From Dysgonomonas hofstadii (GTDB lineage: Bacteria > Bacteroidota > Bacteroidia > Bacteroidales > Dysgonomonadaceae): 64,000 nucleotides of DNA. Position 1 is the stretch's first letter. The number at the start of each line of letters is the position of its first letter. Location: the NCBI RefSeq assembly GCF_014196915.1, contig NZ_JACIEP010000006.1, positions 1 to 64,000 of the forward strand. Reading direction: 5' to 3'. Shown here piece by piece: positions 4,257 to 61,900 of this stretch. The translations under genes were made by a program, and so were the position numbers. The notes below the pieces were generated by a model. That model saw nothing but the letters and a program-made list of their open reading frames with translations. It was not told the DNA's origin and ran no database searches.

Positions 4257-4868
4257 TCAAGCTCCTCCTGACCTCCCCGCAGGGGAGGACCTGTTTTCCC
4301 CCGCCGGGGGAACTAAAGGGGGCTCTTCATTCTCGATCCTCTCCCTTTCTTCCTTCGTCGCCATCCTGATGACCTGGCTGTCCTCCCCGTTCAGGTGCTT
4401 ATCCAGTTTAATAAACAAGTCGGCCTCATGCTGGTTATTTACATAAATAATTTGCTGCCGTAGTTTCGGCTTTTCCTGTTTTTCTTTCTCTTTGCGTTTC
4501 TCTTCCCGTTCCAGCACATAGTTTATCGCCCTCAGGTCGGGGTCTTTCTGTTTGGTTTTCACCACTTTCTTTTTCAGGATCATAACCGACGGGTTGCTGA
4601 CCGCAGGCTGATAGGTGCAATGCTCTTCGATGGTTGTATATCCCGTCAGTTTTTTCTTCAGTGACGAGCGGGCTATTTTCACCAGTTCATCGTCGCGACG
4701 TTCTTCGGCTTCGTCTACCCTGCGTCTGAAATCGGGATTCTTTTCTTTCCAATAGTAGAACGTATTTCGGCTGATCTTCATAGCCGTGCATATCTCGGAG
4801 ATTGTGTACAGGTCGGCTTCGATGAGCCTTTCGATGCGGGACACCAGTTTTTCGTTGTATTTTGCCAT
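4257..4868 (-). CDS. Orphan terminase small-subunit-like helix-turn-helix protein
   Basis: The 203-residue product has an N-terminal helix-turn-helix (about 1-50, with LYTISEICTAMKISRNTFYYW) followed by a charged helical region. This resembles phage DNA-packaging small subunits of the phBC6A51 type. Residues 110-140 are Lys/Glu-rich and probably coiled. No large terminase, portal or capsid gene is nearby, so it is an orphan or a phage relic. The last 20 or so residues (PPLVPPAGENRSSPAGRSGG) are encoded by a palindromic GC-rich repeat (4261-4325), which appears to have replaced or extended the original C-terminus. A similar repeat lies just before the ATG. Family assignment is moderate. Confidence 0.6.
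   Translation of the reverse strand: MAKYNEKLVSRIERLIEADLYTISEICTAMKISRNTFYYWKEKNPDFRRRVDEAEERRDDELVKIARSSLKKKLTGYTTIEEHCTYQPAVSNPSVMILKKKVVKTKQKDPDLRAINYVLEREEKRKEKEKQEKPKLRQQIIYVNNQHEADLFIKLDKHLNGEDSQVIRMATKEERERIENEEPPLVPPAGENRSSPAGRSGGA
4261..4325. repeat. GC-rich double-palindrome repeat, copy 1 (overlaps a CDS 3' end)
   Basis: Two small palindromes, CCTCCCCGCAGGGGAGG and CCCCCGCCGGGGG, are followed by AAAGGGGG. The unit resembles the REP-like repeats dispersed in many Bacteroidetes genomes. It supplies the C-terminal codons of the terminase-like gene. Copy 2 (4887-4940) lies on the other side of the gene in the same orientation. Confidence 0.75.
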
Positions 4869-5200: not shown

Positions 5201-5763
5201 TGTGAATCAGTAGTTAGATTTAACAGTTCAATTTTACTAACGTGCCTGTCGGCTTGTTTTCTTAACTTTTGTCTTGATACAAAAGTTACAAAAAATCAAG
5301 GCTGCATTCCTCGGCGACCCAAAACCGCCGTTACGGCTGAACAAAAAGAACTCGCTCATCAGCAGGGCTAAATACGAATCTTATGTGTAAGCTCGAACAG
5401 CTTTTTGTTCTACGCCTTCACTGCCGGATTGGGTGCCCCGCCTGCGGAACGTATGCCCGGGGCGCAATGCGGCGAGAAGAATATTCTGCCTTGTCAGGCG
5501 TCCGCCCAGTGGCATTAGTCCGTAGTGCGGGGCATCCGTCAGGTGAAAGGGGCGTGAAACCAAATACTGTCTGAGCCGCAGGCGAGTTTATTTGGTTTAG
5601 TCCCTGAGCCTGTAACGGGTCGCATGAAGGATGAGCCACCAAAGCATTTTTGCATCCTTTTTTTGCTTAGGAAAAAAGGATGGCAAGTAATCTTTGATTA
5701 CGCGCAGTAAAAAATTGAACGATTATTTTTCACAATCTTAATAATTTCAACTACTGATTGGCA
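5201..5763. mobile_element. MITE-like structured repeat element, copy A (decayed ends)
   Basis: This segment of about 560 bp is repeated in the same orientation at 53371-53924, with high similarity through most of its length. A shorter relative occurs inverted at 7289-7460. The ends form imperfect inverted repeats (TGTGAATCAGTAGTTAGATT at the left, the complement of TGCCAATCAGTAGTTGAAAT at the right). Inside are several palindromes: AACTTTTGT/ACAAAAGTT at 5264-5287, AAACCAAATA paired with TATTTGGTTT, GTAATC/GATTAC, and a CATCC...GGATG arm pair. AATTC occurs on both sides (5195-5199 and 5765-5769) and may be a target duplication. There is no conserved reading frame, so it is non-autonomous. 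Confidence 0.75.
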
Positions 5764-7288: not shown

Positions 7289-7460
7289 TAATTGTTCGAT
7301 TTTACTGCGCGTAATCAAAGATTACTTGTCATCCTTTTTTCCTAAGCAAAAAAAGGATGTAAAAATGCTTTGGTGGGTCTGTGAGGACTGCAGCCTTGAT
7401 CTTTTGTAACTTTTGTATCAAGACAAAAGTTGAAAAAAAACAAACCTTTGTTTTTCTCAA
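7289..7460. repeat. Internally deleted, inverted relative of the MITE-like element (copy C)
   Basis: Read on the minus strand, this stretch keeps the left part of the element (AACTTTTGTCTTGATACAAAAGTT-type palindrome, ATCAAGGCTGCA) joined directly to its right part (ACCAAAGCATTTTTACATCC, AGTAATCTTTGATTACGCGC). About 330 bases of the middle are missing. The terminal repeats are barely recognisable. It fills most of the 327-bp gap between the lipid kinase and patB-like genes. Confidence 0.7.
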
Positions 7461-53338: not shown

Positions 53339-53346
53339 CAAAGGTA
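53339..53346 (-). promoter_or_regulatory. Promoter -7 box (TACCTTTG) for the ribE operon
   Basis: This minus-strand TAnnTTTG match lies 28 bases before the ribE start. The left end of the MITE-like element (53371) lies only 25 bases upstream of the box, where the -33 element should be. Confidence 0.6.
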
Positions 53347-53370: not shown

Positions 53371-53924
53371 TGTGAATCAGTAGTTAAATTTAAATGTTCG
53401 TTTTTTTACTACCACGTCAGCCGGCTTGTTTTCTTTCAACTTTTTTCTTGATAAAAAAGTTACAAAAAATCAAGGCTGCATTCCTCCGGCGACCCAAAAC
53501 CGGCGTTGCGGCTGAACAAAAAGAACTCGCTCATAAGCAGGGCTAAATACGAATCTTATGCCTAAGCTCGGACAGCTTTTTGTTCTACGCCTCCACTGCC
53601 GGATTGGGTGCCCCGCCTGCGGAACGTATGCCGGAGTCGCAATGCGACGACAAAGGTTACCCCTGCCTTGTCAGGCGTCCGCCCGGTGGCATTAGTCCGA
53701 AGTGTGGGGCACCCGTCAGGCGAAAGGGGCGTGAAACCAAATACTGTTTGAGCCGCAGGCGAGTTTATTTGGTTTAGCTCCTGAGTCTGTGGCGGGTCGC
53801 ACGAAGGATGAGCCACCAAAGCATTTTTGCATCCTTTTTTTGCTTAGGAAAAAAGGATGGCAAGTAATCTTTGATTACGCGCAGTAGAAAAACGAACATT
53901 TAAATTTAACTACTGATTCGCATC
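53371..53924. mobile_element. MITE-like structured repeat element, copy B (intact ends)
   Basis: The 554-bp element begins and ends with 40-bp inverted repeats that differ at only two positions (53371-53410 and 53885-53924, outer part TGTGAATCAGTAGTTAAATT). The interior matches copy A (5201-5763) closely and keeps its palindromes. The left hairpin is AACTTTTTT/AAAAAAGTT here, against AACTTTTGT/ACAAAAGTT in copy A, a paired change that keeps the stem. No frame is conserved between copies, so it is non-autonomous. No clear target duplication is seen. Confidence 0.82.
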
Positions 53925-61667: not shown

Positions 61668-61900
61668 AAGAAAAAGAACGCCCATCTGTAAACAGACAGG
61701 CGTTCTTTATATAAAAGCCGTATTGGTGGATATGCCGAAACTCCGTAAAACAGGATTTGAGTGCTTCGATCCCTTTGTAATCCACTGCGCTAAGCAACCC
61801 GAAGGTGTGGCCCGCCATTAGAATCAAAAGCTTGTCTCGGATATGTTATTAATTGATGAGCTTCCCAATCGACCAACACGACTTAAGTCATCATTTTTTA
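61668..61900 (-). ncRNA. Candidate small RNA (or short gene) with its own promoter and terminator
   Basis: A minus-strand promoter (61909-61938) is followed by about 200 bases of higher-GC sequence and a long terminator hairpin. Its arms are AAGAACGCCTGTCTG and CAGATGGGCGTTCTT, about 61675-61708 with G.U pairs, and it ends in TTTTTC. Inside, GTGGAT/ATCCAC and other short pairings are possible. A 75-codon frame (61600-61827) also crosses it, containing HTFGLLSAVDYKGIEALKSC, but it runs through the terminator into hydrophobic AT-rich codons. An RNA gene is preferred. A short peptide or a pyrE leader is the alternative. Confidence 0.45.

Follow-up and report, generated by a model that had tools for sequence, protein, structure and literature searches.

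Copies A, B, and C in the 64-kb window

The window, i.e., the whole 64-kb stretch of DNA that was analysed, harbors three copies of a gene-less element, referred to as copies A, B, and C. Copy B (53371..53922, plus strand), located beside the riboflavin synthase gene ribE, is a full-length MITE of 552 bp with paired ends. Its left terminal inverted repeat (53371..53410, plus strand), the start of which was set by the end consensus, pairs with the right one (53883..53922, minus strand); the two are 95% identical over 40-41 bp, in agreement with an earlier note on this DNA that had described 40-bp inverted ends with two mismatches. The same note had extended the copy from 53371 to 53924; the start stands, while the end consensus moves the end to 53922, making the copy 2 bp shorter. 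The left end is followed by a left pseudoknot-type module of the CTTGA type (53437..53477, plus strand), which was detected both by the plan search described below and by model R1 (62.2 bits, E 2.9e-14). Next comes a central portion (53478..53819) made up of long imperfect hairpins and swapped modules, as disclosed by the whole-element fold z and by the module alignment, and then a right pseudoknot-type module of another sequence on the opposite strand (53820..53858, minus strand; plan search; R1 17.1 bits, E 0.015).

Copy A (5201..5763, plus strand; 563 bp), recognised from its paired ends and by alignment, has the same interior as copy B, as had been claimed, being 90% identical to it over bases 1-540 of copy B. 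It contains a left pseudoknot-type module (5263..5303, plus strand; plan search; R1 66.9 bits, E 1.8e-15) and a right one (5643..5681, minus strand; plan search; R1 17.1 bits). Its ends had been regarded as decayed, but they are not simply so: both are recognised by the end model, and the right one is of a second, longer type (TGCCAATCAGTAGTTGAAATTATTATGATTGTAAAAAATAATC...), also seen in other copies. Copy C (7289..7460, minus strand) is inverted, internally deleted, and decayed, and aligns with copy B in two pieces (91-93% identity), confirming its inversion and the loss of about 330 internal bases; its ends are too decayed to be recognised by the end model. It retains a left-type pseudoknot-type module (7392..7432, minus strand; plan search; R1 62.1 bits, E 3.1e-14) and a second one of the right type (7331..7369, plus strand), whose end is approximate and which was disclosed by the plan search only. 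The view of the three copies as three decay states of one element is not supported: only copy C is clearly decayed, and copies A and B are members of a family that is mosaic, its ends being of two types and its interior modules interchangeable. The plan search, run on both strands of the window, returned six sites, every one of them within copy A, B, or C. The 7-mers flanking copy A (TAATTCA / TAATTCC) are identical at six of seven positions, those flanking copy B (TAAAATA / TCAATAA) at only four.

The description of the interior as GC-richer than the genome and full of palindromes was also correct. The GC content is 44-45% in copies A and B, each taken together with about 20 bp of flanking sequence, vs 40.5% for the window, and the fold of copy B has a z of -14.7 on the plus strand and of -13.1 on the minus strand, none of 100 shuffles being as stable on either strand.

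As for the neighbouring sequences, the motif TACCTTTG, which resembles the Bacteroidota -7 box, is located upstream of ribE (53339-53346, minus strand); copy B starts 24 bp further upstream and might affect the ribE promoter. Beside copy A, a protein (4257-4868, minus strand) gives helix-turn-helix matches of the transposase/terminase-small-subunit type and is possibly a phage remnant. A match to the Rfam family Bacteroidales-1, a suggested 6S RNA, is found at 61710-61883 (minus strand, 146 bits).

The MITE family and its probable mobilising enzyme

The genome to which the window belongs is a draft of 5.04 Mb in 44 contigs, and two contig ends (C7 and C20) fall inside copies of the element. 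The search with the element returned 82 aligned pieces, representing dozens of copies, and the end pattern (with up to three mismatches) matched 139 times, compared with 21 for the pattern read backwards. In the fetched loci, joining each end to the nearest opposite one gave 37 elements of 54 to 1046 bp, although a few of these pairs (e.g., L080, L007, and L021) may be wrong or composite. The end consensus of these elements is TGCSAATCAGYAGTTRRA; ninety distinct ends gave TGCSAATCAGYAGTTRRAWTTA, with the palindromic 7-mer TWAWTWA just before it. Of the 37 elements, 22 have flanking 7-mers that agree at six positions or at all seven, far above the values obtained in 2000 re-pairings (mean 4.7, maximum 11); this is a 7-bp target-site duplication; in the other 15, the imperfect case of copy B included, five positions at most match. 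On the basis of their common inverted ends and matching flanks, copies A, B, and C are members of a MITE-like, gene-less family of mobile elements, as the earlier note had proposed, and the element is not confined to the three loci of the window, its ends recurring elsewhere in this genome and in its relatives.

Matches to the element were found in 15 of 24 genus-mates, in 3 of 12 genomes of other genera of the family, and in 2 of 24 genomes of other families of the order. An element is located 60-68 bp from the ribE start, in identical orientation, in the own genome and in two other species (G003 and G019), and is absent from all six genus-mates in which the gene order could be checked, 15 further loci being uninformative. 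The ribE gap, of 864 bp in the own genome, measures about 134-334 bp in four of these six; in the remaining two, the gap exceeds 1.1 kb and shows no similarity to the element. More generally, 13 of the 37 own-genome elements lie between divergent genes, with no avoidance of divergent gaps. Short arrays of TAAYTYA-like 7-mers (three or more in 90 bp) flank 7 of the 37 elements (e.g., L070, L020, L028, L068, and L006) and are absent from all of 1675 AT-matched segments taken from the window, the element counts including the duplicated target itself. Some elements consist of little beyond two ends, such as one of 35 bp in Bacteroides rodentium (L118:6673-6707) and two of 63 and 54 bp in the own genome (L066 and L069, respectively).

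A phage or plasmid origin was considered and rejected: copy B matches none of 50,697 phage records, and among 72,556 plasmid records it gives one match, of 48 bp, over the left module. A 26-base interior pattern has no match in viral contigs, and the end-motif matches in 28 viral stretches, none with an end pair and TWAWTWA flanks, were taken as chance.

The same ends were found in named genomes in 40 stretches, belonging to Dysgonomonas, Bacteroides, Tannerella, Prevotellaceae, and many Saprospiraceae bins, among others; single end matches were also obtained for Vibrio and for bins of other phyla, where chance or mis-binning may be the cause. Eighteen element pairs were examined in other genomes, and the flanks are identical at all seven positions in L102, L111, L119, L122, L140, L050, and L053. 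In a Bacteroidales bin (L131), an end pair 1058 bp apart, with flanks TTATTAA / TTAATAA (6/7 identical), encloses a gene for a 251-aa protein. This protein matches the IS982 transposase model NF033520 (E 2.1e-23, 83.2 bits, below the curated cut-off of 130), DDE_Tnp_1 (25.9 bits, above the cut-off of 23), and DDE_Tnp_1_3 (24.1 bits, below the cut-off of 27), and is referred to as IS982-like because it remains under the curated NCBIfam cut-off. The target duplication of the IS982 family is about 6-9 bp long, a range that includes the 7-bp flank repeat of L131. A 318-bp element with such ends (L108; flanks 3/7) retains only the N-terminal part of a protein of the L131 type, and a piece of such a protein lies beside the same ends in L126, a locus cut by a contig end. 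Judging from these three elements of other genomes, of which one is full and two are partial, the family has probably been moved by an IS982-like enzyme.

The transposase with the same ends that the earlier note had foreseen thus exists in another genome, but none was found in the own genome or in its 24 genus-mates, where the 1.5-kb flanks of every IS982-domain match are devoid of such an end pair. Several candidate partners were discarded for the same reason, namely, all 22 IS982-domain matches retrieved in 41 relatives, the only IS982-domain match of the own genome (G000:C2:350849-351256, L181; a 298-aa frame), and the rve-type integrases of two own-genome loci. Relatives of the L131 protein, at 22-28% identity, occur in 6 of 295 genomes of the class (the own genome included). 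When alignments covering 80% or more of one copy are considered, no two copies exceed 95.3% identity; this, together with the missing partner, suggests that the family of the own genome is by now orphaned and old.

What lies between the ends is highly variable. The 24 full elements can be aligned as successive modules, and classing them by simple marker strings fully resolved 21 of the 24 into 14 module combinations, in which the end on each side, the left pseudoknot, and the inner hairpin come in two types each, and the left arm and the right pseudoknot in three. The interior is, therefore, a mosaic of two inverted structured units plus long hairpins. One element (L065) joins the family ends to a very different interior, and in other genera the same ends surround other interiors, several of them visibly palindromic (L102, L111, L122, and L140), with flanks matching at 7/7 positions; ends and cargo are separable. 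In Saprospiraceae bins (L102, L109, L111, and L140), MITEs of about 200 bp with the same ends and 6-7/7 flanks have another interior, containing TTTGCTATTTGC-like palindromes.

Base pairing of the module and its distribution in Bacteroidota

The left module is 41 nt long and consists of a stem-loop, the loop of which can pair with a segment located beyond an A-rich linker; in copy B it reads AACTTTTTT-CTTGAT-AAAAAAGTT-ACAAAAA-ATCAAGG, and in copy A its stem is AACTTTTGT/ACAAAAGTT. The right module, on the opposite strand, follows the identical plan with a different sequence. In two genus-mates (G003 and G021; L044 and L055), the same left module occurs with a changed stem sequence and the pairing kept. 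The plan search asked for a perfect 8-bp stem, a loop of 5-10 bases, and five loop bases complementary to a segment downstream of an A-rich stretch; in 1.09 Mb of other loci, many of which had been chosen for carrying the motif, it found 97 sites vs 16 in the reversed sequence.

Two alignments were used to follow the changes at paired positions. The one referred to as A2 consists of 34 distinct strings from matches to the phylum pattern, with no pairing requirement; 99.2% of its cells pair, and it contains 22 double-sided changes, whereas shuffles give 4.0 and slid controls 0-5. In its second helix one pair varies (T-A 26, A-T 4, C-G 3, unpaired 1), the remaining four loop pairs being set by the search pattern and thus uninformative. 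The other alignment, A1, holds 29 of 49 distinct sequences, rows of other spacing and near-duplicates having been left out, and comes from a finder that required six of the eight inner stem pairs; the outermost stem pair, which the finder did not demand, is T-A in 15 cases, G-C in 6, C-G in 4, A-T in 2, and unpaired in 2. The base pairing of the module is thus shown to be under constraint, with compensatory changes in both helices. The two helices would be joined in a single pseudoknot, alternative hairpins in its place being possible.

The bases after the module usually form a long hairpin, with a median z of -2.68 and 21 of 51 units below -3, vs a median of -0.22 and 5 of 50 in control stretches. 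An inverted second pseudoknot was rejected as a general trait of stand-alone units, being present in 4 of 54 of them vs 2-4 in controls; the one in L219 and the pair in L277 look real.

The module extends well beyond the MITE family. A pattern with free bases at the key pairs matched 28 of 395 Bacteroidota genomes, while the same pattern read backwards gave zero among the matches listed, and a second pattern, which was one base too wide, matched nine of the 395. The covariance model of the left module, scored on up to 16 candidates per genome, detected it in at least 112 of the 395 sampled genomes and in 54 of 171 genera (E 0.001 or better), and several genomes harbor 16 or more matches. Thirty pattern loci were fetched: two belong to the own genome and have the ends, and all the other 28 are devoid of a pair of IS982-type ends. 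No Rfam family covers this widespread folded module in the scans performed, neither copy B and the window nor 19 stand-alone-unit loci giving a match to it at the gathering level. In open-licence papers, where a sequence can be found only if it is printed in the text, nothing on the module was found.

Stand-alone units are in some cases clustered. In L362 (G281:C19) and L363 (G653:C5), 11 and 15 matches, respectively, are located on a single strand within a 10-kb stretch, among genes with surface-polysaccharide domains (e.g., sugar transferase, DegT, polysaccharide synthesis, and UDP-sugar dehydrogenase). Some units of the clusters carry an extra hairpin inserted in the loop or in the linker. 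Genome G432 has two loci (L240 and L241) in which the unit is preceded, about 270-280 bp upstream, by the end of a match to domain V of group II introns (64.3 bits, E 1e-10); since the two sites have common upstream sequence, the two pairings of intron and unit may represent one event.

Origin of the folded interior and known systems

The whole body of data is explained in a rather likely way by a MITE family moved by an IS982-like transposase, now orphaned, whose cargo is a captured folded repeat. According to this scheme, copies lying between 7-bp TWAWTWA target duplications would have been moved in trans by an IS982-like DDE transposase recognising their ends. The transposon would have captured a pre-existing folded repeat as passenger DNA, a step suggested by the occurrence of the left module without these ends in other Bacteroidota, and exchange between copies, by gene conversion or recombination, would then have shuffled the modules.

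It might be asked whether the units are instead pseudoknotted functional RNA domains, transcribed from the element or by read-through from a neighbour, with a role in the regulation or stability of transcripts or with an action in trans. The covariation of both helices would fit such a role, and so would the stability of the downstream hairpins and the linker, since known RNA pseudoknots also have an A-rich linker after the stem. The raw energy of the downstream hairpin is lower on the reverse strand by 5.5 kcal/mol on average (P 7e-8), a preference that becomes small after shuffle correction (median z -2.87 vs -2.34, n 50, P 0.035). The favoured strand, moreover, is the complement of the one that gives the pseudoknot a workable order of its loops. 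On either strand, G-U pairs are less frequent than in shuffled sequences (7.7 vs 10.8% and 9.7 vs 14.8%). The orientation of 51 units (the own genome contributing two) relative to their neighbours (ORFs of 90 aa being used as gene stand-ins) is balanced, with 14 and 15 units in the two orientations between co-directional neighbours, 13 between convergent and 2 between divergent ones, and the rest undecided; given this balance and the weak strand difference, the module does not appear to belong to an mRNA of defined sense; a small RNA gene is possible. No sigma-70-type promoter or terminator pattern was found around copy B, by a scan that does not cover Bacteroidota promoters. The suggestion of the earlier note that the middle may encode a folded RNA is, hence, not favoured over folding as DNA, the two strands folding about equally, G-U pairs not being enriched, and Rfam giving no match. 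An RNA function is considered unlikely, and our guess is that the pairing matters as folded DNA.

A second alternative is that the units are the sites of a mobilising or recombining enzyme of their own, acting on folded single-stranded DNA of the REP or attC type, the IS982-type ends having been added later within the genus. Their fixed core with variable arms, their multiple copies in many genomes, and their co-oriented clusters are in line with this possibility, and Y1 transposases are present in 33 of 35 genomes, unit-bearing genomes only having been counted. Yet none of 30 Y1 loci fetched from a longer list has a unit in its flanks, and an integrase domain occurs in none of 20 selected proteins near unit clusters (L258, L362, L363, and L365), so that this alternative appears somewhat unlikely. 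A derivation of the element from a worn-out insertion sequence or gene, the interior being decayed coding sequence, is very improbable. Such an origin could be imagined from the transposase fragment kept between the ends of L108 and from the stop-free stretches of the interior, but the own-genome copies have no similarity to the L131 transposase at E 1e-3, and fold energies lie far outside those of shuffles. As the earlier note had stated, no frame is conserved: copy B lacks ORFs of 100 aa or more, and the stop-free stretches of other copies (80-144 codons) are scattered over several frames of both strands with no evident common start. Substitutions by codon phase number 302, 246, and 208, the phase being arbitrary and the pairs not independent. 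Returning to the IS982-like-moved family, a broader and tentative proposal can be added: it is possible that the units represent an undescribed, phylum-wide class of mobile or recombinogenic repeats with their own enzyme, in which a pseudoknot-type fold matters more than sequence, that the element of the window arose when an IS982-like transposon took up two such units, inverted with respect to each other, and spread them, and that clustered units may help to reshuffle surface-polysaccharide genes.

For a family without a visible transposase in its own genome, these data define the end sequence and the target consensus and point to a candidate enzyme. Since the helices covary, the question of why bacteria keep such palindromes becomes directly testable, and, if clustering in surface-polysaccharide loci were general, the units might help to explain the rearrangement of those loci.

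Among known systems, the attC sites of integrons are recombination sites defined more by the folded strand than by sequence. The units resemble them in being defined by their fold and in forming co-oriented clusters, and differ from them in the conserved core and in the lack of an integrase domain in the 20 proteins mentioned above. Porphyromonas gingivalis belongs to the same order as the source organism. A MITE of this species also has an unusual interior, which is reported to be a minisatellite (PMC4596501). The REP elements associated with RAYT (Y1) transposases, described in PMC3733652 as GTAG and CGTC families of 20-40 bp, with CGTC repeats also in Bacteroidetes, are likewise dispersed folded palindromes; the module described here differs in being 41 nt long, in being followed by a long hairpin, and in lying beside Y1 genes in none of 30 loci. 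The nearest published case found is MITECca01 of Cardinium, a MITE of about 240 bp derived from ISCca4, an IS982-family element that is present in the same genome and has near-identical ends (PMC9769881). The two share the absence of a transposase, the inverted ends, the tie to an IS982-type transposase, and the phylum; the parent is present there and was not found here, and the passages of that report dealing with MITECca01 mention no folded mosaic interior (PMC9769881). As a mechanism, a MITE moved by an IS982-like enzyme is ordinary; the folded, covarying module of its interior is not.
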